In this document: positions 3,295-17,413 of the stretch, piece after piece | Layout: every line of letters starts with the position of its first letter | Position numbering within the stretch: position 1 is the first letter of the stretch | From: Streptomyces humicola | GTDB taxonomy: Bacteria > Actinomycetota > Actinomycetes > Streptomycetales > Streptomycetaceae | Assembly (NCBI RefSeq): GCF_024436035.1 | Contig: NZ_JANFNG010000001.1 | Coordinates: forward strand, 513,689-577,688 | Reading direction: 5' to 3' | DNA: 64,000 bases | The notes under the pieces: generated by a model | What the model was told of the DNA's origin: nothing | What the model saw: the letters and a program-made list of their open reading frames with translations, nothing else | Database searches by the model: none | Made by a program: the position numbers and the translations under genes

Positions 3295-3528
3295 GTGGCT
3301 GGCGCCCGGTTGACCACGCCCTCGTTCCTCGTGCTCGGCATCATCGACACGCTGGGCGAGGCCAGCCCGTACGACGTGAAGGTCGAGGCCGCCCGCACGG
3401 TGGCGCCGTTCTGGTCGGTGCCGCACGCGCAGGTCTACGCGCAGTGCCACCGCCTCGTCGAGGCAGGCATGCTGTCGGAGGCGCGGCAGACGGGCGGGCG
3501 GAACCGGAGGACCGACCTCACCTTCGGC
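3295..3528 (+). pseudogene. PadR-family regulator, N-terminal fragment
   Basis: From a GTG at 3295 the frame encodes a PadR winged helix (SFLVLGIIDTLGEASPYDVK, then FWSVPHAQVYAQCHRLVEAG) to about residue 78. The match then stops and the frame runs into unrelated sequence. The C-terminal dimerisation helices are missing. The break coincides with the beginning of a sterol-desaturase-like fragment, so a deletion seems to have fused the two genes. Confidence 0.65.
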
Positions 3529-3532
3529 GTGT

Positions 3533-3958
3533 TTATATCTGCCGCTGATCCTGCTGGGCGTTTCGCCGACCGCCGTGGCGTTCTGTTCCTCGGCCAATCT
3601 GGTCTACCAGTTCTGGATCCACACCGAGCGGATCCACAGGCTGCCCCGGCTCGTCGAAGCGATCTTCAACACCCCGTCGCACCACCGGGTTCACCATGCC
3701 TCCCAAGGCGGTTACCTGGACCGCAACTTCGGCGGCATCCTGATCGTCTGGGACCGGTTGTTCCGCAGCTTCGCCCCCGAGACCTACCAGCCCGTCTTCG
3801 GACTGACCAAGAACACCTCCACCTACAACCCGCTTCGCGTCGCCGCAAGAACCTGGGGCGAACGCTGGTGCTATCTCTTCCGCTGCCCGGGCTGGCGCCC
3901 CTCCGACCTGGTCGCCGATGCCAGTGGCGTGACCGGCGTCGGGCCGGTCACGCCGTGA
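3533..3958 (+). pseudogene. Sterol desaturase/fatty-acid hydroxylase, C-terminal fragment
   Basis: The frame ending at the TGA 3956-3958 reads NLVYQFWIHTERIHRLPR, then NTPSHHRVHH, then YLDRNFGGILIVWDRLF. This is the conserved C-terminal third of the membrane di-iron fatty-acid hydroxylase superfamily, including its HHxxHH metal box. The N-terminal helices and first His boxes are absent, and no start codon or ribosome site fits. It is fused out of frame to the PadR fragment upstream. Confidence 0.7.
3926..3954. terminator. Terminator-like hairpin between convergent genes
   Basis: GGCGTGACCGG (3926-3936) and CCGGTCACGCC (3944-3954) form a perfect 11-bp stem with a 7-nt loop. It overlaps the end of the desaturase remnant and faces the end of the GH16 gene. 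There is no U-tract, as is common in streptomycetes. Confidence 0.6.
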
Positions 3959-3985
3959 CGAATGCGCCGTGATGTGCGAGAGAGG

Positions 3986-5404
3986 TCAGGACGGGAGGTT
4001 CCAGACCTGGTTGGCGGCGCCGGTGCAGTCCCAGATCTGCACCTGGGTGCCGGGTGTCGTCGACCAGTTGGTGTCGTCCAGGCACTTGTTGGACTGCGGG
4101 TTGTACAACGACCCGTTGGACTGCGGTATCCAGACCTGCGATCCGGTGTTGTTGCAGTCGTAGAGGTCCACGGGTGTGCCGTCGGCGGTGCCGGCCGCGT
4201 AGACGTCCAGGCACTTGCCCAGCACATGCAGCGTCGTGCCTGCCTGGACGAACGTCCACTGCTGCGCGTTGCTGCCGTTGCAGGTGTAGACCTGGATCGG
4301 GTTGTAGTTGGCGCTGCTCGCAGAGCGGTCGTCCAGACACAGTCCGGCGTAGCCGGTGATGGGGCCGGTCGGCCCGGTGGTGCCGCCGCCGCTGCCGTTG
4401 GTCGTGTACGCCGCGACATATCCGACGCTCATCGTCCCGCCGGAGGTGGTGGAGCCGCTCGGCGTGGTGCAGCCGCACTGGCCGTTCGGGAAACCGCCGC
4501 CCATGGCGAGGTCGAAGATGATCGACATGTTGTGGTCGAAGGCCTGCTGCCAGGTGGAGGCGCCGACTTGGCTCTCGTTCACGCTGAAGTACTGCGTGCC
4601 GTCGAGGTAGAAGGTGATGGACTCGGCGGAGGTGTTCGTCCGGTCGAGGATCATCGAGTAGGTGTGGTAGCCGGTCTGGCAGCCGGGGCACGCCTGCAGG
4701 CCGCTGCCGATGCCGTTGCCCTCGTTGCACGGGCCGCCCGGATACGTGCCGCAGTGGATGGTGCCGGCGACGTCGGAGAGCGCGTTGACGTCCTCCATGA
4801 TGTCGATCTCGCCGTTCTCCGGCCACTGGCCGGGTCCCAGCATCCAGAATGCGGGCCAGTAGCCGGAGCCGTTGGCCGGGTCGGGCTGCTGGATCGAGGC
4901 GGTCACCTCCAGCTTGCCGCCGGCCGGAGCACCGACATTGGCGCTTGTGGTCTGTATGCGCCCGGAGGTCCAGTTGCCGCCGTTGTTCAGGGCGGTGATG
5001 TCCAGGTGGCCGTTGCCGTCGAGGTACACGTTGCTGGTCGAGTTGGTCATGGTCTCGATCTCGCCCGTTCCGAAGTTCGAGCCGGGACCGGTGTCGTACA
5101 TCCAGTTCGACGAGGAGGGCTGGCTGCCCGCCGAGCCGGAGAAGTCGTCACTGAAGACCGTGGACCACCCCGATGGCGGTGGTGGGACGGTCACGGCGTC
5201 CGCCGTGGTGGGGAAGGCCGCGAAGACGGTGAGCAGGCCCACCGCGACGAGCGCTGCTTCCCGGCGGCATTGTCCGGCGAACGAGCGCACGCGCCGGGGC
5301 ACGCGCAGTCTCGCGGTATGTGCAGTATGCGGTGCCGTGTGTGGCAGCGAACCGGCCGAACCAGCCGATATACGTGGGTTCCCCTGCCGACGTCTGCTCT
5401 TCAT
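3986..5404 (-). CDS. Secreted GH16 beta-glucanase with ricin-type lectin domain
   Basis: 472 residues from the ATG at 5404, which has AGGAGCAGGG just upstream. A long, basic N-region precedes a hydrophobic core and an ADA cleavage site near residue 70. Residues about 80-340 are a GH16 domain with the catalytic motif GEIDIMED (E199 and E204 as nucleophile and acid/base, D201 between). Residues about 345-472 are a ricin-B/CBM13-type beta-trefoil with three Q-x-W repeats (QQW, QVW, QVW). Expected role: secreted endo-beta-1,3(-1,4)-glucanase attacking fungal or plant glucan, with the lectin aiding binding. Exact specificity is not visible. It probably forms a secreted wall-degrading set with the GH76 enzyme. 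Confidence 0.9.
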   Translation of the reverse strand: MKSRRRQGNPRISAGSAGSLPHTAPHTAHTARLRVPRRVRSFAGQCRREAALVAVGLLTVFAAFPTTADAVTVPPPPSGWSTVFSDDFSGSAGSQPSSSNWMYDTGPGSNFGTGEIETMTNSTSNVYLDGNGHLDITALNNGGNWTSGRIQTTSANVGAPAGGKLEVTASIQQPDPANGSGYWPAFWMLGPGQWPENGEIDIMEDVNALSDVAGTIHCGTYPGGPCNEGNGIGSGLQACPGCQTGYHTYSMILDRTNTSAESITFYLDGTQYFSVNESQVGASTWQQAFDHNMSIIFDLAMGGGFPNGQCGCTTPSGSTTSGGTMSVGYVAAYTTNGSGGGTTGPTGPITGYAGLCLDDRSASSANYNPIQVYTCNGSNAQQWTFVQAGTTLHVLGKCLDVYAAGTADGTPVDLYDCNNTGSQVWIPQSNGSLYNPQSNKCLDDTNWSTTPGTQVQIWDCTGAANQVWNLPS

Positions 5405-10396: not shown

Positions 10397-10822
10397 TCAG
10401 CGTGCGTGGCCGAGAGGCGGGACCGTCAGGAGCGGCCTGTAGTGGCCCTTGGGGCACGGCTCGCCGATCGGCTGGTCGTCGGCTTCGACCCAGGCATGGG
10501 CGGCGAACGGGTGGGTCCGTACGCCGGTGCACCAGGTCGGCCAGGCGTGGCGGGCCCGGCACAGCAGTGCGGTGGCGATGGAACGTTGCAGACAGTTCTG
10601 TCCCGCGCAGCGCAGGCTCACGGAGACGACCTCCTCGCGGGCGGTTCGTGCCTGTTCGGCGGTGGCCGGCGGTGCGCCGCGGCGGGCGAACTCCAGCACG
10701 CTGAGCAGCCGTGCCGGCCTGAGCCGGGCGAGCGGGCGGGCGACGCCGACGGCCAGCAGGGGCAGCAGGCGCCGCCGCAGCGGTAGTCGCCGCCTCTCGT
10801 CGAGGGCGACGGGAACACTCAT
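10397..10822 (-). CDS. Lasso peptide leader peptidase (B2 protein, transglutaminase-like)
   Basis: 141 residues, typical for stand-alone B2 proteins. The Cys-His-Asp protease triad of this fold is visible: Cys in QNCLQRSIATALLC, His in FAAHAWVEADD, Asp shortly after. The N-terminal half is Arg/Leu-rich as usual. It cleaves the precursor leader after the B1 protein delivers it. Its ATG overlaps the B1 stop (ATGA), so the two are translationally coupled. It is the last gene of the lasso operon A-C-B1-B2. Confidence 0.88.
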   Translation of the reverse strand: MSVPVALDERRRLPLRRRLLPLLAVGVARPLARLRPARLLSVLEFARRGAPPATAEQARTAREEVVSVSLRCAGQNCLQRSIATALLCRARHAWPTWCTGVRTHPFAAHAWVEADDQPIGEPCPKGHYRPLLTVPPLGHAR

Positions 10823-11073
10823 GGGGCCACCACCACTTCGGCGGCGCGCAGTTGGTGGATGACGGCGCTGACATCGTGCTCGGCCCGTTGCGGTGCGATG
10901 CCGTGGGCTGCAGCGAAGGCGGTGGCGATGGTCTCGGGCGATTCCCCGTCGAGGAGCCGGTGCAGCACCTGTCTGCCGGTGATGTTGAGTTGCCAGTAAC
11001 GGCCGGTGCGCTGGTGCAGCAGCACGGTTCCGTCGTCGGTGTCCGTCATGGATACGTCAGGATGGAGCCGCAT
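10819..11073 (-). CDS. Lasso peptide RiPP recognition element (B1, PqqD-like)
   Basis: 84 residues with the PqqD/RRE fold pattern: VLLHQRTGRYWQLNITGRQV, then helices ending VSAVIHQLRAAEVV. It binds the leader peptide, typically through a YxxP motif, which the precursor here has. The start at 11073 has GGAGG about 11 nt upstream. It begins 5 nt after the cyclase stop and overlaps B2. Confidence 0.88.
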   Translation of the reverse strand: MRLHPDVSMTDTDDGTVLLHQRTGRYWQLNITGRQVLHRLLDGESPETIATAFAAAHGIAPQRAEHDVSAVIHQLRAAEVVVAP

Positions 11074-11078
11074 GCGTG

Positions 11079-11834
11079 TCACACCTCCGAGGGGGCGGCG
11101 CCGGGTGCGCGGCGAGTGGCCGTGGCTGTGGCCGTGCGCAGCCAGGTTTCGCAGCCGAGCAGGTTTTCCAGCGTTTGGGTTGTCGTGTTGTCCGGTTGGG
11201 GAGCGGTCAGCCGCGCGCGGAGCGTGGCGGGCGCGATCAGTCCGCGGTCCGCCAGCGCGGAGTCGGCGAACGTCTGCAGGATCGCGGGGAGGTTGCGGCG
11301 CAGCCCCCTGCGGATGTCCTTGCCGAATTCGCCCTTCGTGGACCGCCGCAGCACCTCCTCGGGCACGATGCCGCGCATCGCATCGGCCAGCAGCGGCTTG
11401 AACCGCCACGGTCCCGCGTGTTCGTGCGCCGCGACGCGCAGGGTTGCTTCGAGCACGCCGTCGTCCAGGTACGGCATGTCCAGTTCCACACCGGACTCGG
11501 CGTACAGCTGCCCCAGCAGCCGATAGCTGGCGGTGTTGGAACGGACCATGAGCAGCACCTGATGCGTCGCCAGATCATCGGCGAGCGGCTGCGCCTGCCC
11601 GGCGGTACGGCGCAGCGCCTCGCGGACGCCGACCGGGCAGTGCCCGATCACCGCCAGCCGTGTGGGACCCGCCGCAGCCACCAACACCCGCTCGGGCGGC
11701 CACTCACCCACCAGCCACGGCCTCCCGGACGCATGCGCCAGCATCCGAGGGTTCCCGAACGGCACGAGCGCCTGAACTTCCGCGGCGTCGGCGGTGTCCG
11801 GCAGGACCACGAACCCAGCACTCACCTTTGCCAT
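11079..11834 (-). CDS. Lasso cyclase (asparagine-synthetase-like C protein), internally deleted
   Basis: Only 251 residues, whereas lasso cyclases are about 600. The first ~70 residues match the N-terminus (AGFVVLPDTADA, RLAVIGHCPVG). From VREALRRTAGQAQPLADDLA onward it matches the C-terminal quarter (ELDMPYLDDGVLEATLRVA, PWRFKPLLADAMRGIVPEEV). The central ~330 residues are missing in frame, including most of the amidotransferase-like domain and the SGGxDS ATP-pyrophosphate loop. Such a protein should not adenylate the acceptor Asp. The junction lies at about 11595-11630. It is either a real loss-of-function deletion or an assembly collapse. The ATG at 11834 is preceded by GGGGGAA. Confidence 0.8.
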   Translation of the reverse strand: MAKVSAGFVVLPDTADAAEVQALVPFGNPRMLAHASGRPWLVGEWPPERVLVAAAGPTRLAVIGHCPVGVREALRRTAGQAQPLADDLATHQVLLMVRSNTASYRLLGQLYAESGVELDMPYLDDGVLEATLRVAAHEHAGPWRFKPLLADAMRGIVPEEVLRRSTKGEFGKDIRRGLRRNLPAILQTFADSALADRGLIAPATLRARLTAPQPDNTTTQTLENLLGCETWLRTATATATRRAPGAAPSEV

Positions 11835-11861
11835 TTCCCCCGCCGCCGGTTCGATTTCGGC

Positions 11862-11932
11862 AGTCAATGAGAGTCAATAGAGTCAATGATAGTCAATGAG
11901 AGAAGGGTCAATAAGAGTCGGTGAGAATCAAT
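11862..11932. repeat. Helically phased AGTCAAT repeat array
   Basis: AGTCAAT occurs at 11862, 11872, 11881 and 11891, then variants GGTCAAT (11906), AGTCGGT (11916) and AATCAAT (11926). Spacing is 9-10 bp apart from one 15-bp step, so nearly all copies face one side of the helix. The array lies in the A-C intergenic region, in the 5' leader of the cyclase. It could be a multi-site binding array for a regulator or a leftover of replication slippage. Confidence 0.8.
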
Positions 11933-12359: not shown

Positions 12360-13214
12360 GTGAGCACACATCATTCCGCACACACCGACCGGTACAGCAC
12401 TGGCCTGCTGAGCAAGGATTCTCCGAAGGAACGCGCGCGCCTGGAGTCCATCCAGCGGAACGTGGACGCCTACACCACCGCCGTCCTCCGGGATCTTCCC
12501 ATAGCGCCGTCCGGCCGCTGCCTTGAGCTGGGTGCGGGCGCCGGTTCCATCGCCTACTGGCTCGCCGGCCACTTTCCCGACGGCCATGTGGTGGCCGCCG
12601 ACATCGACACCCGCTATCTCGACGCGAGCCGGGCCACCAACCTCGACGTGCACGAAATCGACGTCACCCGCGACGACTACATGCCGGGCAGCTTCGACCT
12701 CATCCACGCGCGCTATCTCTTCTGCCATCTGCCCGCGCGGGACGAGGTGATGGCGCGTGCCGTCGAATGGCTCGCCCCAGGAGGCTGGCTTGTCGTCGAG
12801 GAGCCGTATCTGCTGCCGGCGAGCACCTCTCCCTTCCCTTTGGTGCAACGTCTCATGGCCGCCTATCAGCACAAGTACGCCGAGCACGGGGCCGACATGA
12901 CATGGGCGCGCGGTGTTCCCGCGCTGCTTTCCCGCAACGGCCTGACCGATGTGGCGTTCTCGGGGAATCTCGGCTGCATGGGATGCCTCGGCAAGGACCG
13001 CTGGTCCCCGCTCATCAGTCAGGCGGGTCCGTCCCTCGTCGCCGACGGCCTCATCACGGAAACCGAGCTCACCGAGTTCTTCGAGCTGCTGAGCGACCCG
13101 GCCTTCGTCGACATCCCCCAGGTCACCATCGCCGCGTGGGGCCGACGCCCGTCCGGCCGACTACCGGAAGCGGGAGACGAACCGGCGTTGCCAGGCAGTC
13201 TCCACGGCGCGTGA
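12360..13214 (+). CDS. Class I SAM-dependent methyltransferase
   Basis: 284 residues from a GTG at 12360 with GGGGGAAG 5-10 nt upstream. The SAM-binding glycine loop is CLELGAGAGSIAYWLA, followed by motif II (VVAADIDTRYL) and the post-I region (FDLIHARYLFCHLP). The C-terminal part carries a GCMGCLG stretch and an unusual extra ~25 residues overlapping the convergent phosphatase gene by 54 nt. The acceptor is unknown. It is divergent from the lasso operon across a shared regulatory region, so a tailoring or regulatory link is possible but unproven. Confidence 0.82.
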   Translation: MSTHHSAHTDRYSTGLLSKDSPKERARLESIQRNVDAYTTAVLRDLPIAPSGRCLELGAGAGSIAYWLAGHFPDGHVVAADIDTRYLDASRATNLDVHEIDVTRDDYMPGSFDLIHARYLFCHLPARDEVMARAVEWLAPGGWLVVEEPYLLPASTSPFPLVQRLMAAYQHKYAEHGADMTWARGVPALLSRNGLTDVAFSGNLGCMGCLGKDRWSPLISQAGPSLVADGLITETELTEFFELLSDPAFVDIPQVTIAAWGRRPSGRLPEAGDEPALPGSLHGA

Positions 13215-13589
13215 CGCGTAGTGCTCCCGGATGTAGGCGATCGCCTCACGGCCGGGCAAGCCGTCGAGAACGACGAGGCATGCCAGCGCCGTGCCGGTCC
13301 GTCCATACCCGCCGCCGCAGGCGATCTCGACGCGTTCGGTTGCAGCGCGCGCCCATGCCTCGTGCAGCGCATCCGCGGCAGCCGTCGGGTCGGACGGCAG
13401 CCAGATGTCCGGCCAGCGAACCCACAGGGCCTCCCAGCCGACGGGGGGTGGGCGGTGTCCGAGCAGATACAGCGCGAAGGTGGGCGCCGGCCCTTCCGGG
13501 AGGGGGCGGCGCAGTCCCCGGCCGCGAACTCGCCGGCCCGAGGGCAGTTGCAGCACACCCGCCGTCGTGGGCTCCCAGGTACCGGTCAC
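13161..13589 (-). CDS. Small dual-specificity-type protein phosphatase
   Basis: 142 residues. The Cys-x5-Arg signature of protein tyrosine/dual-specificity phosphatases appears as ACGGGYGRTGTALA: Cys nucleophile, phosphate loop, Arg. The preceding Asp-rich strand (WPDIWLPSDP) could carry the general acid. It would dephosphorylate protein or small phosphoesters in the cytoplasm. It starts at a GTG (13589) without an obvious ribosome site, so the exact start is uncertain. Its 3' end overlaps the convergent methyltransferase. Confidence 0.7.
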   Translation of the reverse strand: MTGTWEPTTAGVLQLPSGRRVRGRGLRRPLPEGPAPTFALYLLGHRPPPVGWEALWVRWPDIWLPSDPTAAADALHEAWARAATERVEIACGGGYGRTGTALACLVVLDGLPGREAIAYIREHYASRAVETAWQRRFVSRFR

Positions 13590-13728: not shown

Positions 13729-14598
13729 ATGAGCACTCTGCAAGCCGTGACCCTTGACCGCGTGGTCGACATGGCCCAATACCCCTTGTCGGAGCCCGAC
13801 AGCGCCGAGGGGCAGGCCGTCATCGCCCGGGCCCGGCGCGAACTGTCGACGCTCGGCTGTACCGTGCTGCCGGACTTCATCCGCTCTTCGTTCCGCGATG
13901 TCCTGCGGCAGGAGTGCGCCGCATTCGCCCCACGGGCCCACTTCGACGTCGAAACGGTCAACGTCTACAACATCGCCGTGGACTCGGAGCTCCCCGACGA
14001 CCACCCTGGCCGCAGAAGCTTCGAGCGGGGAAACGCCTTCGTCGCCCGCGACCACATCCCCGCGGACTGCATCATCAGCCTGCTCTACTCCCACGAACCG
14101 TTCCAGAGCTTCGTCGCCCGCTGCTTCGGCCTACCGCAGCTGCACCGGCTGGCGGACCCACTCTCCGGACTCGTCCTCAACGTCGTCGCCCCCGGCAGGG
14201 AGCACCCCTGGCACTTCGACACCAACGAGTTCACCGTGAGCATGCTCACCCAGGAGGCCGAATCCGGCGGCGTCTTCGAGTACTGCCCGAACATCAGGAG
14301 CGGGGCGTGCGAGAACTTCGACGACGTACGGGCCGTACTGGACGGCAAGGGAGACCGGTTGACCCGTCGCCTCGCCCTGAAGCCGGGCGACCTCCAGCTG
14401 TTCAAGGGCCGGTACTCGCTGCACCGGGTGAGCCCCGTGCGAGGCGAGATCGCCCGCCACTCGGCGATATTCGCCTACAGCGAGCGCCCCGGCGTCATCG
14501 GGAGCGCGGCACGGACCCAGCAGCTCTTCGGCCGCGTACTGCCCGAACACCTTCAGGCCGAGGGCCGTGCCGTGCGCGGGGACGCGCTGCTCGACTAG
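13729..14598 (+). CDS. Fe(II)/2-oxoglutarate dioxygenase, HalD/BesD-like family with an intact HxD
   Basis: 289 residues. Iron ligands are WHFDTNEF (H162, D164) and LHRVS (H232), then an Arg for 2-oxoglutarate (ARHSAIFAY). Overall sequence resembles the HalD/BesD family acting on free amino acids. The halogenating members replace the Asp by Gly; here Asp is kept, so hydroxylation or desaturation is expected. First gene of an apparent operon with a methyltransferase (68-nt gap) and a carnitine-type acyltransferase. I infer it hydroxylates a small amino acid or betaine precursor. The family assignment is from memory. Confidence 0.75.
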   Translation: MSTLQAVTLDRVVDMAQYPLSEPDSAEGQAVIARARRELSTLGCTVLPDFIRSSFRDVLRQECAAFAPRAHFDVETVNVYNIAVDSELPDDHPGRRSFERGNAFVARDHIPADCIISLLYSHEPFQSFVARCFGLPQLHRLADPLSGLVLNVVAPGREHPWHFDTNEFTVSMLTQEAESGGVFEYCPNIRSGACENFDDVRAVLDGKGDRLTRRLALKPGDLQLFKGRYSLHRVSPVRGEIARHSAIFAYSERPGVIGSAARTQQLFGRVLPEHLQAEGRAVRGDALLD

Positions 14599-14666
14599 GA
14601 CCTGGCGTAACACTCGGTCGCCGTAGGCCGTTTCCCCACTGTGCGTTCCACGGAGGAGCAACCCCC

Positions 14667-15590
14667 TTGCGTTTCGACTCGACCGGAAAAGTCTCGCTCG
14701 ACCACATCTACACCCAGCCCGATCCGCGCGCGTACTTCACCGTGCTGCGCGGGCTCGACTACGGCGTTCCGCAGCGCGCGAAGCCCTACTTCGCCAAGCT
14801 GATCGAGGAGTACCGGGAGTCGCAGCGCGTACCGGTCCCGAAAGTGCTCGACATCGGCTGCTCGTACGGGATCAACGCCGCCCTGCTGAAATACGACGCG
14901 ACGATGGACGAACTGTACGACCGCTACGGGAATGGAGGTGCGAACGGTGGCGCGAGCGGCGGCATCGACGCGAGGACGCGCGAGGCACTGCTCGCCCACG
15001 ACCGGGAGCTGTCCCGCTCGCGCCGGCCCGCACTGCGTACCCGCTTCGTCGGTCTCGACGCCTCCGCAAGCGCGCTGGCGTATGCGCTCGAAGCGGGGTT
15101 TCTCGACGACGCGATCCACGCCGACCTGGAGGAGCACGACCCCACCCCGCTTCAGCGTGCCCGGCTCGCCGGAACGGACCTGGTGATCTCGACGGGCTGC
15201 CTCGGATACGTCACGGAACGGACGCTCACCCGCGTCGTCAGAGCCCAGAGCGGCGGCCGGCCCTGGATGGCCCACTTCCTGCTGCGGATGTTCCCCATCG
15301 ACCCCGTCGACCGGGCCCTGGCCAGGCTCGGATATCGCACCGTCCCCGTGGGAGAGGCGGTCAGGCAGCGGCGGTTCGCCTCCGCGGAGGAGCAGGAGCT
15401 CGTCCTCGGGACGATGTCGTCGGCCGGGGTGGATGCGAAGGGCATGGAGGAGGAAGGCTGGCTGTACGCACAGCTCTACATATCCCGGCCGTCAGGCCCT
15501 GAGGACACCCCAGGACCCCACCGCCCCCACGATCTCCACGATCTCCACGACCTCCACGACCCCCACGATCCGAATCGGGAACAGAATTGA
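14667..15590 (+). CDS. Class I SAM-dependent methyltransferase
   Basis: 307 residues from a TTG at 14667, chosen because GGAGGAG lies 8 nt upstream; earlier frame is not coding-like. SAM motif I is VLDIGCSYGINAALL, then an acidic residue after RFVGLDAS, and the later motif TDLVISTGCLGYVT. The last ~20 residues are a low-complexity His-Asp-Leu repeat. It ends 2 nt before the acyltransferase start, so the two are coupled. In context it probably N- or O-methylates the product or substrate of the adjacent dioxygenase. Confidence 0.8.
   Translation: MRFDSTGKVSLDHIYTQPDPRAYFTVLRGLDYGVPQRAKPYFAKLIEEYRESQRVPVPKVLDIGCSYGINAALLKYDATMDELYDRYGNGGANGGASGGIDARTREALLAHDRELSRSRRPALRTRFVGLDASASALAYALEAGFLDDAIHADLEEHDPTPLQRARLAGTDLVISTGCLGYVTERTLTRVVRAQSGGRPWMAHFLLRMFPIDPVDRALARLGYRTVPVGEAVRQRRFASAEEQELVLGTMSSAGVDAKGMEEEGWLYAQLYISRPSGPEDTPGPHRPHDLHDLHDLHDPHDPNREQN
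15528..15572 (+). repeat. 9-bp coding tandem repeat, five copies
   Basis: CACGATCTC-type units at 15528, 15537, 15546, 15555 and 15564 (with CACGACCTC and CACGACCCC variants). They encode the HDLHDLHDLHDPHDP tail of the methyltransferase. Confidence 0.9.
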
Positions 15591-15592
15591 TC

Positions 15593-17413
15593 ATGAGCCA
15601 GGGAACGGCAGCCACCCCGACCTTCGCCCTCGAGGACACCCTGCCGCGCGTGCCGCTGCCCACGCTGGAGGAGAGCTGTGAGAGGTTCCTCGCCTGGTGC
15701 GCGCCGCTGCTGACCGAGGCGGAGCTGGCGGCGACCGAGGCGGAGGTCGCCGCCTTCCTGCGGCCCGGCGGCCCCGGCCGGATGCTGCACGCGGCGCTGG
15801 AGGAGTACGACGCCACCGAAGGCGTGCACAGCTGGCTCGACACCTTCTGGCCCTACCGATACCTGGGCCGCCGGGACAGGATCGCGCTCAACGCCAACTT
15901 CTTCTTCCTGTTCCGCGACTCGGACCTGCCACAGGTCGAACGGGCCGCTGGGCTCATCGCCGCGGCCGTCCACTACAAGCGCCGGCTCGACCGGGAGCTC
16001 ATCGAGCCGGTGGTGCAGCGCGGGCAGCCCCAGTCGATGGAGCAGAACAAGTTCCTCTTCTCCACCACACGGATTCCCGGGACGGAACAGGACACCGTCC
16101 GCGCCCCCTACACCGATCAGTGGCCCGGCCCCTCCGAAGCGCGGCACATCGTGGTGTTCTTCCGCGGCGCCATGTTCCGGATGGACGTGCTCGGCCCCGA
16201 CGGCGTGCCGCACAGCCTGGCCGACCTCGAAGCGGGACTGCGCGCCGTGATGAAGGCCGCAGCCGAGCGGCCCGTCGCCGCGGATGCCCCGGTGGGCCAC
16301 CTGACCACCATGGCCCGCGCGCAGTGGGCGGCCGCACGACAGTCCCTGCTCGCCTGCGACCCCGGCAACGCGGAGGCGCTGGACGCGGTCGAGACCGCGC
16401 TGTTCTGCCTCTGCCTGGAGGACTGCGCGCCTGCCGACACTCAGCAGGCCTGCGACCAGCTGCTCTACGGTGACGGCGGCAACCGCTGGTTCGACAAGGC
16501 CCTCTCCCTGATCGTGTTCGGCGACGGCCGGGCGGGCATCAACGTGGAGCACTGCGGCCTCGACGGAACCACCATCCTCGGCTTCGTCGACGCCCTGCTC
16601 GACACCCCCGCCGAGGAGCAGTCCCGACGGTCAGGGGCCCGCACTCAGGGCCCGCCGAAGCCGTCGCCCGTCGTCTTCGAGCTCGACGAGGCCCTGCGGG
16701 CGCACGTGCGCTCCGCCGCCGACGCCTTCGCCGCGTACGGGAAGAACACCGCCACCGCCATCGTGTCGTTCGAGGACTTCGGCAGCAACACAGCCAAGGC
16801 GCTCGGTGTCTCGCCCGACGCGTTCGTTCAGTGCGCCTACCAGCTCGCCCACCGGCGCGCCAAAGGCCACCTGGGTGCCACGTACGAGTCGATCGCCACT
16901 CGGCAGTGGCGGCGCGGGCGGACCGAGGCGATGCGTGTCGTCACCGCCGAGATGCAGCGGTTCGCGGCGGCTATGGACGATCCGGCGGCGCACGCGGACG
17001 CCCGGCGCTCCGCGTTCCGGGCCGCCGCCGAGAAACATGTGGCGCGCGCGAAGGAGTGCCAGGCCGGGCAGGCGCCCGAGCAGCACCTGTGGGAGCTGGA
17101 GCTGATCCAGCGCAGGCGCGGAACGGAGCTGGGGGTGACCGAACAACCCGCCCTGTACCGCAGCCCGGGCTGGCTCACGATGCGCGACGACTATCTGAGC
17201 ACCAGTTCCGCGCCGTCCGCCAACATCCAGTACTTCGGCTTCGGTTCGACCAGCAGCCGCTGCATCGGCGTCGCTTATGTACTGCTGCCCGAGCGGCTCA
17301 ACCTCTACCTGAGCACGCCGCTGCCGGTGGCGGGCGAGATGCGCGCGTTCGCCGACAGCCTCCGCGCGGCGGTCGGCGAACTGTGTGAGCTGATGGCGGC
17401 GGATCACGGATAG
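15593..17413 (+). CDS. Choline/carnitine O-acyltransferase family protein
   Basis: 606 residues, the usual size of this two-lobed family. The catalytic His is H320 in NVEHCGLDGTT. Flanking landmarks are RYLGRRDRIALNANFFFLF, the LYGDGGNRWFDKALSLIV strand before the His, and a C-terminal Ser/Thr-rich patch (FGSTSSRCIG). These enzymes move acyl groups between CoA and the hydroxyl of carnitine or choline. They are rare in bacteria and mostly found in biosynthetic settings. Last gene of the dioxygenase-methyltransferase-acyltransferase operon. I infer that it acylates the hydroxyl put on by the dioxygenase. Confidence 0.87.
   Translation: MSQGTAATPTFALEDTLPRVPLPTLEESCERFLAWCAPLLTEAELAATEAEVAAFLRPGGPGRMLHAALEEYDATEGVHSWLDTFWPYRYLGRRDRIALNANFFFLFRDSDLPQVERAAGLIAAAVHYKRRLDRELIEPVVQRGQPQSMEQNKFLFSTTRIPGTEQDTVRAPYTDQWPGPSEARHIVVFFRGAMFRMDVLGPDGVPHSLADLEAGLRAVMKAAAERPVAADAPVGHLTTMARAQWAAARQSLLACDPGNAEALDAVETALFCLCLEDCAPADTQQACDQLLYGDGGNRWFDKALSLIVFGDGRAGINVEHCGLDGTTILGFVDALLDTPAEEQSRRSGARTQGPPKPSPVVFELDEALRAHVRSAADAFAAYGKNTATAIVSFEDFGSNTAKALGVSPDAFVQCAYQLAHRRAKGHLGATYESIATRQWRRGRTEAMRVVTAEMQRFAAAMDDPAAHADARRSAFRAAAEKHVARAKECQAGQAPEQHLWELELIQRRRGTELGVTEQPALYRSPGWLTMRDDYLSTSSAPSANIQYFGFGSTSSRCIGVAYVLLPERLNLYLSTPLPVAGEMRAFADSLRAAVGELCELMAADHG

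Follow-up and report, generated by a model that had tools for sequence, protein, structure and literature searches.

The locus described here lies in a stretch of 64,000 nucleotides (nt) of Streptomyces humicola contig NZ_JANFNG010000001.1 (the window), part of a 7.07 Mb genome. Three genes, encoding an oxygenase (DIOX), a methyltransferase (MT) and an acyltransferase (AT), follow one another on the forward strand in the order DIOX, MT, AT, with spacers of 68 nt between DIOX and MT and 2 nt between MT and AT (Table 1). The tight linkage of three genes between 13729 and 17413, proposed in an earlier reading of the letters alone (the sequence-only reading), was borne out. AT is the sole match to the choline/carnitine acyltransferase family PF00755 in the genome. 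None of the three proteins matched an NCBIfam profile at E<=0.01. No title on such a trio appeared among the matches listed in the open-licence PubMed Central (PMC) literature, which does not prove its absence from print.

Table 1. Positions of the three genes and of their diagnostic residues in the window. Fractions refer to the named loci described in the text; aa, amino acids.
Feature	Position	Strand	Description
DIOX	13729..14598	+	289 aa; BesD/HalB/Hydrox-family Fe(II)/2-oxoglutarate oxygenase, predicted to act as a hydroxylase (Pfam HalD, model, fold)
DIOX W161-H162-F163-D164	14209..14220	+	metal-binding HxD, not HxG; H and D in 78/78 loci
DIOX H232	14422..14424	+	distal metal ligand by motif; invariant, 78/78
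DIOX R243	14455-14457	+	presumed 2-oxoglutarate residue by motif; invariant, 78/78
MT	14667..15590	+	307 aa; class I S-adenosylmethionine (SAM) methyltransferase (fold and relatives' Pfam matches); TTG start after GGAGG
AT	15593..17413	+	606 aa; choline/carnitine acyltransferase family PF00755; ATG at 15593, alternative TTG at 15587
AT H320	16550..16552	+	catalytic His; aligns with His of CPT2 HSWGDG; 80/80 loci
AT Gln497	17081..17083	+	replaces Arg of carnitine acyltransferases; Gln in 80/80 trio loci

The distribution of the trio was followed in samples of 2 genomes from the genus, 394 from the family and 394 from the class, in 14 control genomes, and in a scan of one genome per species. In the scan 410 stretches were seen to encode a relative of AT, and the best 80 of them make up the named loci; two of these (L114 and L134) end too early for DIOX or MT, and DIOX counts are therefore given out of 78. 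PF00755 proteins were encoded by 1/2 genus, 39/394 family and 42/394 class genomes and by 0/14 controls. The view that bacterial carnitine acyltransferases are uncommon thus holds in general, as in the controls, but not for the sampled relatives, about one in ten of which carries the family. In two of the 42 class carriers (G470 and G642) the AT was remote only (E = 5.0e-87 and 1.4e-89). A trio-type AT was present in 40/394 class genomes, and a DIOX orthologue (E<=3.9e-108) was found in the same 40, adjoining AT on the same contig, and not in the other 354 (lists compared by reading). MT of the same kind (MT1) was present in 38 of these 40, and the other two carry elsewhere a second kind about 40% identical to it (MT2). 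MT1 occupied the interval between DIOX and AT in 37 of the 38; in the remaining genome, G410, it stood next to a second AT copy on a different contig. The two AT genes of G410 lie on contigs C176 and C184, one beside DIOX with remnants of MT (L035) and the other beside an intact MT, so that its trio seems to be split. Given that 40/40 class genomes with a trio-type AT have an adjoining DIOX orthologue, and that all have an MT, the arrangement is not attributable to chance.

The same linkage was seen across the named loci, whose hosts include Streptomyces, Wenjunlia, Actinomadura, Saccharopolyspora, Frankia, Amycolatopsis, Actinokineospora and others. DIOX adjoined AT in 78/78 loci with enough DNA, and MT1 lay between them in 66/78, the MT relatives at that site being 57-80% identical. 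Among open reading frames (ORFs) of at least 90 aa within 10 kb, no further neighbour was conserved and no conserved transporter or regulator was found; the next commonest neighbour cluster occurred in 23/81 loci and was taken for local synteny. The trio is a conserved module kept across many soil actinomycetes. The neighbourhood search called for by the sequence-only reading therefore returned a co-inherited unit, and the failure to co-occur that would have spoken against that reading was not observed.

DIOX matched Pfam family HalD (PF23169; E=6.2e-12; 45.8 bits, cut-off 26) and, weakly, WelO5, with no other family at E<=0.01. A search of Protein Data Bank (PDB) sequences returned nothing at E<=0.001; HalB and HalD appeared at E 0.16-0.28, a relationship later borne out by fold. 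The AlphaFold model (predicted local distance difference test, pLDDT, 91.7) aligned in VIA-align with HalB, Hydrox 7jsd, HalA, BesD and HalD at Z 20.1-21.1, with Hydrox 9oet at 17.7 and with SnoN at 16.4. DIOX shares fold and the HalD family with BesD, HalA, HalB, HalD and Hydrox (PDB 6nie, 9oer, 7u6j, 7u6h, 7jsd, 9oet), but is only 13-18% identical to them in structural alignments. We know of no linked MT and AT described for the BesD-family halogenases or Hydrox. In radical halogenases the motif reads HxG, which leaves room for a halide, and HalB and HalD indeed carry Gly where DIOX has the Asp of HxD in the sequence alignment. Unlike the BesD-type halogenases, DIOX keeps HxD, and it combines the BesD-type fold with an HxD...H motif in which H232 is taken, from the motif, to be the distal metal ligand, R243 presumably serving 2-oxoglutarate. 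This fold and the invariant HxD indicate hydroxylation rather than halogenation, as the sequence-only reading had held for a HalD/BesD-like dioxygenase. Hydroxylation of an unactivated carbon, on a presumed substrate, is strongly implied by the modelled fold and the motif. The solved hydroxylase Hydrox 7jsd was crystallised with lysine, according to its structure title; the lysine-binding residues of BesD-type enzymes were looked for in PMC10187165 and PMC13244439 and not found.

AT was identified as a PF00755 protein by a match over profile positions 1-572 of 574 (E=5.4e-163; 544 bits) and by its catalytic His. Its best solved relative was CPT2 (E=4.6e-73), the PHROGs search gave only a match of unknown function (3.9e-4), and the plasmid search with AT gave zero matches. 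Like CrAT, COT, CPT2 and choline acetyltransferase, AT has the full-length domain, the catalytic His and the TYES, GRT and STS motifs, the serines of the last being invariant in 80/80 loci. In CrAT, COT and CPT2, and also in an unlinked actinobacterial AT (L169), the position of Gln497 is held by Arg. The Arg of this 'DRH' motif is assumed here to bind the carnitine carboxylate, and choline acetyltransferase presumably has Asn at the same position. Neither point is shown in the passages of PMC11852590. AT thus departs from the carnitine acyltransferases in the strict sense, and the substitution of Gln for Arg makes carnitine an unlikely acceptor on sequence grounds. The description of AT as a full carnitine/choline-type acyltransferase stands for the family and not for the carnitine label, and the idea of AT as a plain carnitine acyltransferase was dropped on the invariant Gln497. 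AT also differs from CrAT in having Phe548 (80/80 loci) at the position of CrAT Met564, as aligned through CPT2 and L169. Met564 is taken, from mutagenesis of CrAT, to limit acyl length, and Phe548 suggests that the acyl group is probably short; acetyl or propionyl would be a guess from that work. Two further observations concern this family. L169 (G642, 3454-5241, minus strand), which keeps the carnitine-type Arg, shares 29% identity with the window AT, its neighbouring ORFs resemble a dipeptide-type ABC transporter, and G642 has no DIOX match. The AT of L005 contains internal low-complexity GVQ repeat units that vary between species.

The window MT matched Methyltransf_25 only, below threshold (19.8 bits, cut-off 27). 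Among PDB sequences no match was better than E 0.04, and the proteins matched were of other kinds; in an alignment of 27 members, Methyltransf_12 was matched by 17 and Methyltransf_25 by 16 (E<=0.01). Its model (pLDDT 83.3) has a class I methyltransferase fold, with TylM1 as best match (Z 13.8; root-mean-square deviation 2.9; 171 aligned) and many others within 1 unit. Together with the SAM-binding glycine motif D62-x-G64, present in 66/66 MT-bearing loci, these results support the proposed SAM methyltransferase. The fold neighbours, which act on small molecules and RNA, mix N-, O- and C-methyltransferases within 1 Z unit and therefore do not reveal the acceptor atom. The end of MT (15520-15587, plus strand) carries low-complexity HDL repeat units, variable between species. 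On plasmids, remote relatives of MT have an EutA-like protein, DMT transporters and ATP-grasp proteins as neighbours.

Local MT1 was absent from 12/78 named loci and from 11/39 AT-positive family genomes. The MT1-less set comprised nineteen distinct genomes (ten, G173 and eight; four repeats with the same coordinates were left out); in G173, AT reads in two frames and DIOX is present. All candidates were scored in this set, in the AT-positive family genomes and in 40 AT-negative family genomes. MT2, about 40% identical to the window MT, was found elsewhere in the genome in 18 of the 19. MT1 is present in 28 of the AT-positive family genomes; one of these (G232) also has MT2 proper, and weaker paralogues occurred in G000 (34%) and G375 (33%). 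The difference (18/19 versus 1/28) gave a Fisher p of 8e-11, or 5e-9 counting the weak paralogues, with relatedness ignored. In a quick AT tree, which scored the short L114 and L134 and the unlinked L169 as MT-bearing, the MT1-less state required 7 changes, at least 3 of them forced by well-supported branches. In the MT tree (bootstrap not settled) MT2s fell into three clades, the largest containing AT-positive genomes only, including G232; a second paralogue of one AT-positive genome (L255, G753) grouped with genes of AT-negative genomes. Eleven MT2 regions showed three settings, one shared by 8 (xanthine-dehydrogenase-like genes, by eye), another by L160 and L161, and a third in L158 alone, and no partner gene was common to all 11. 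Replacement in three clades suggests that methylation is required, and the pattern is read as one methyltransferase repeatedly replaced by another in a pathway that would need it. The candidate that MT is dispensable was dropped on the same MT2 data.

Taken together, the trio is proposed to form one biosynthetic module that methylates and hydroxylates an amino acid or betaine of small size and afterwards O-acylates it, the acyl group probably being short; from the sequences at hand this is given a probability of about 0.5. The substrate of MT would be an amino acid or amine of small size, methylated most likely at the nitrogen to give a betaine; DIOX would hydroxylate an unactivated carbon of this compound with iron and 2-oxoglutarate; and AT would then use its catalytic His to acylate the newly formed hydroxyl, with acyl-CoA as donor. 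The product would probably be a small amino-acid derivative that has been methylated, hydroxylated and acylated, similar to acetylcarnitine yet not acetylcarnitine; it might serve as a compatible solute, as a store of acyl groups or as a signal. This is the logic of eukaryotic carnitine biosynthesis (TMLD, BBOX) and CrAT, namely methylation, 2-oxoglutarate-dependent hydroxylation and O-acylation. TMLD and BBOX are members of the TauD/clavaminate-synthase-like family. DIOX, in contrast, belongs with HalD, and no conserved aldolase or aldehyde dehydrogenase adjoins the trio.

Remote DIOX homologues (29-47% identical) were used as a further indication of substrate. Plasmid records matching DIOX numbered 119, and betaine (quaternary-amine) genes were present in 4 of the 7 neighbourhoods that were read. 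A homologue 47% identical to DIOX was accompanied by an OpuAC/ProW/ProV-type transporter on a Caballeronia plasmid; homologues on two Paracoccaceae plasmids (Rhodobacteraceae M382 and Alisedimentitalea) were accompanied by the same MttB gene set, and one on a Mesorhizobium plasmid by MttB and a GbcA-like Rieske protein. As the five actinobacterial neighbourhoods contained no such genes, the betaine reading is only suggestive. In three genomes a DIOX homologue is followed by a DddP-like M24 protein (L152, 7926-13092; L232, 3195-5419; L153, 7953-10190); this protein was found in one of the five actinobacterial regions and also in Caballeronia and Pseudomonas. The pairing, joined in Caballeronia by the betaine-type transporter, is perhaps an undescribed route of betaine breakdown. 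In another of the five regions (L233, 7179-8852) the remote homologue directly adjoins an arginine-deiminase/DDAH (dimethylargininase)-like gene.

Several points weigh against the proposed module. Betaine genes were not found beside the DIOX homologues of Pseudomonas, Klebsiella and Ensifer (3/7 plasmid neighbourhoods), or in any actinobacterial neighbourhood (0/5, judged mostly by eye from translations; remote homologues occur in six class genomes, five of which were read); two of the four betaine-positive plasmid sets are the same gene set, and homologues this distant need not share the substrate of DIOX. The fold matches of MT are generic, and its target could also be a carboxylate, a sulphur or something unrelated. 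Gln497 by itself does not exclude carboxylate binding by AT. Amycolatopsis anabasis has neither local MT1 nor MT2. An MT2-like gene was found in 2/40 AT-negative family genomes and in 9/354 AT-negative class genomes; in the class sample DIOX and MT were scored on at most six and five first-look candidates per genome, respectively, and weak paralogues may have escaped.

If MT were a carboxyl O-methyltransferase, the product would be the methyl ester of an O-acyl hydroxy-amino acid and no betaine would be formed. The lost Arg of AT suits an acceptor with a masked carboxylate, and O-methyltransferases are among the fold matches of MT alongside N- and C-methyltransferases. MT, however, matched no carboxyl methyltransferase family in Pfam or NCBIfam, and this alternative does not account for the betaine genes near some remote DIOX homologues; it is considered unlikely.

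A distinctly unlikely alternative is that AT forms acylcarnitine proper or has an imported betaine as its acceptor, the trio then being a bacterial carnitine-type acyl shuttle or store of primary metabolism. The full-length PF00755 domain with intact catalytic His and STS motif would agree with such a role, as would the proximity of some Streptomyces loci to housekeeping genes recognised from their translations as lipA, lipB and glnA. It is opposed by the invariant Gln, where even the unlinked L169 keeps Arg, by the confinement of DIOX to HalD and weakly WelO5 among Pfam families, and by the linkage of MT and DIOX to AT, which suggests that the acceptor is made rather than imported.

Degradation or inactivation, in which DIOX would oxidise and MT and AT would modify a foreign compound or antibiotic, is very unlikely: the patchy distribution (39/394 family genomes) and the catabolic-looking gene sets around some remote DIOX homologues would fit it, but no conserved transporter or regulator adjoins the trio, and three-part co-inheritance with MT replacement suggests biosynthesis. 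Just as doubtful is a pathway of DIOX and AT alone with MT merely co-transcribed and serving a different molecule, for which the loci and family genomes without local MT and the lack of either kind in A. anabasis speak, and against which stand the 18 of 19 such genomes, in three clades, with MT2.

A second SAM methyltransferase gene lies upstream of the trio (12360-13214, plus strand); none of the 80 named loci has a counterpart of it at E<=1e-8. A small tyrosine-phosphatase-like protein is encoded divergently from DIOX (13161-13589, minus strand); of the 80 named loci, only that of A. anabasis yielded a homologue (L107, 14176-14586; 47% identity), located 2.4 kb downstream of AT, and the flanks of some of the remaining 79 are short. 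Genes of lasso-peptide type occupy 10397-11867 (minus strand) and include a B2 protein (NF033537, E=2.6e-33). An asparagine-synthase-like ORF of 262 aa in the same interval matches only positions 416-559 of the 561 of the albusnodin-type cyclase model, suggesting that the cluster may be degraded or the ORF cut short.

The acyl-betaine pathway put forward in the sequence-only reading is supported in part, by the co-inherited trio, the BesD-family fold with HxD and the betaine genes beside some remote DIOX homologues; the carnitine label of its acyltransferase is given up. The module is widespread, with AT relatives in 410 stretches, and small, so that its product could be looked for through expression of the three genes and metabolome comparison. 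If the proposal is true, the BesD family would reach beyond free amino acids to methylated ones, and actinomycetes would make for themselves an analogue of acylcarnitine, which belongs to a type of compound known from eukaryotes. In a bolder and more tentative form, which we hold possible but less probable than the module itself, about one in ten actinomycetes would produce a new class of compounds in which a hydroxylated betaine is esterified with a short-chain acyl group, a bacterial counterpart of acetylcarnitine or acetylcholine; a BesD-family hydroxylase specific for betaines and a PF00755 acyltransferase adapted to the new acceptor would carry out the synthesis.

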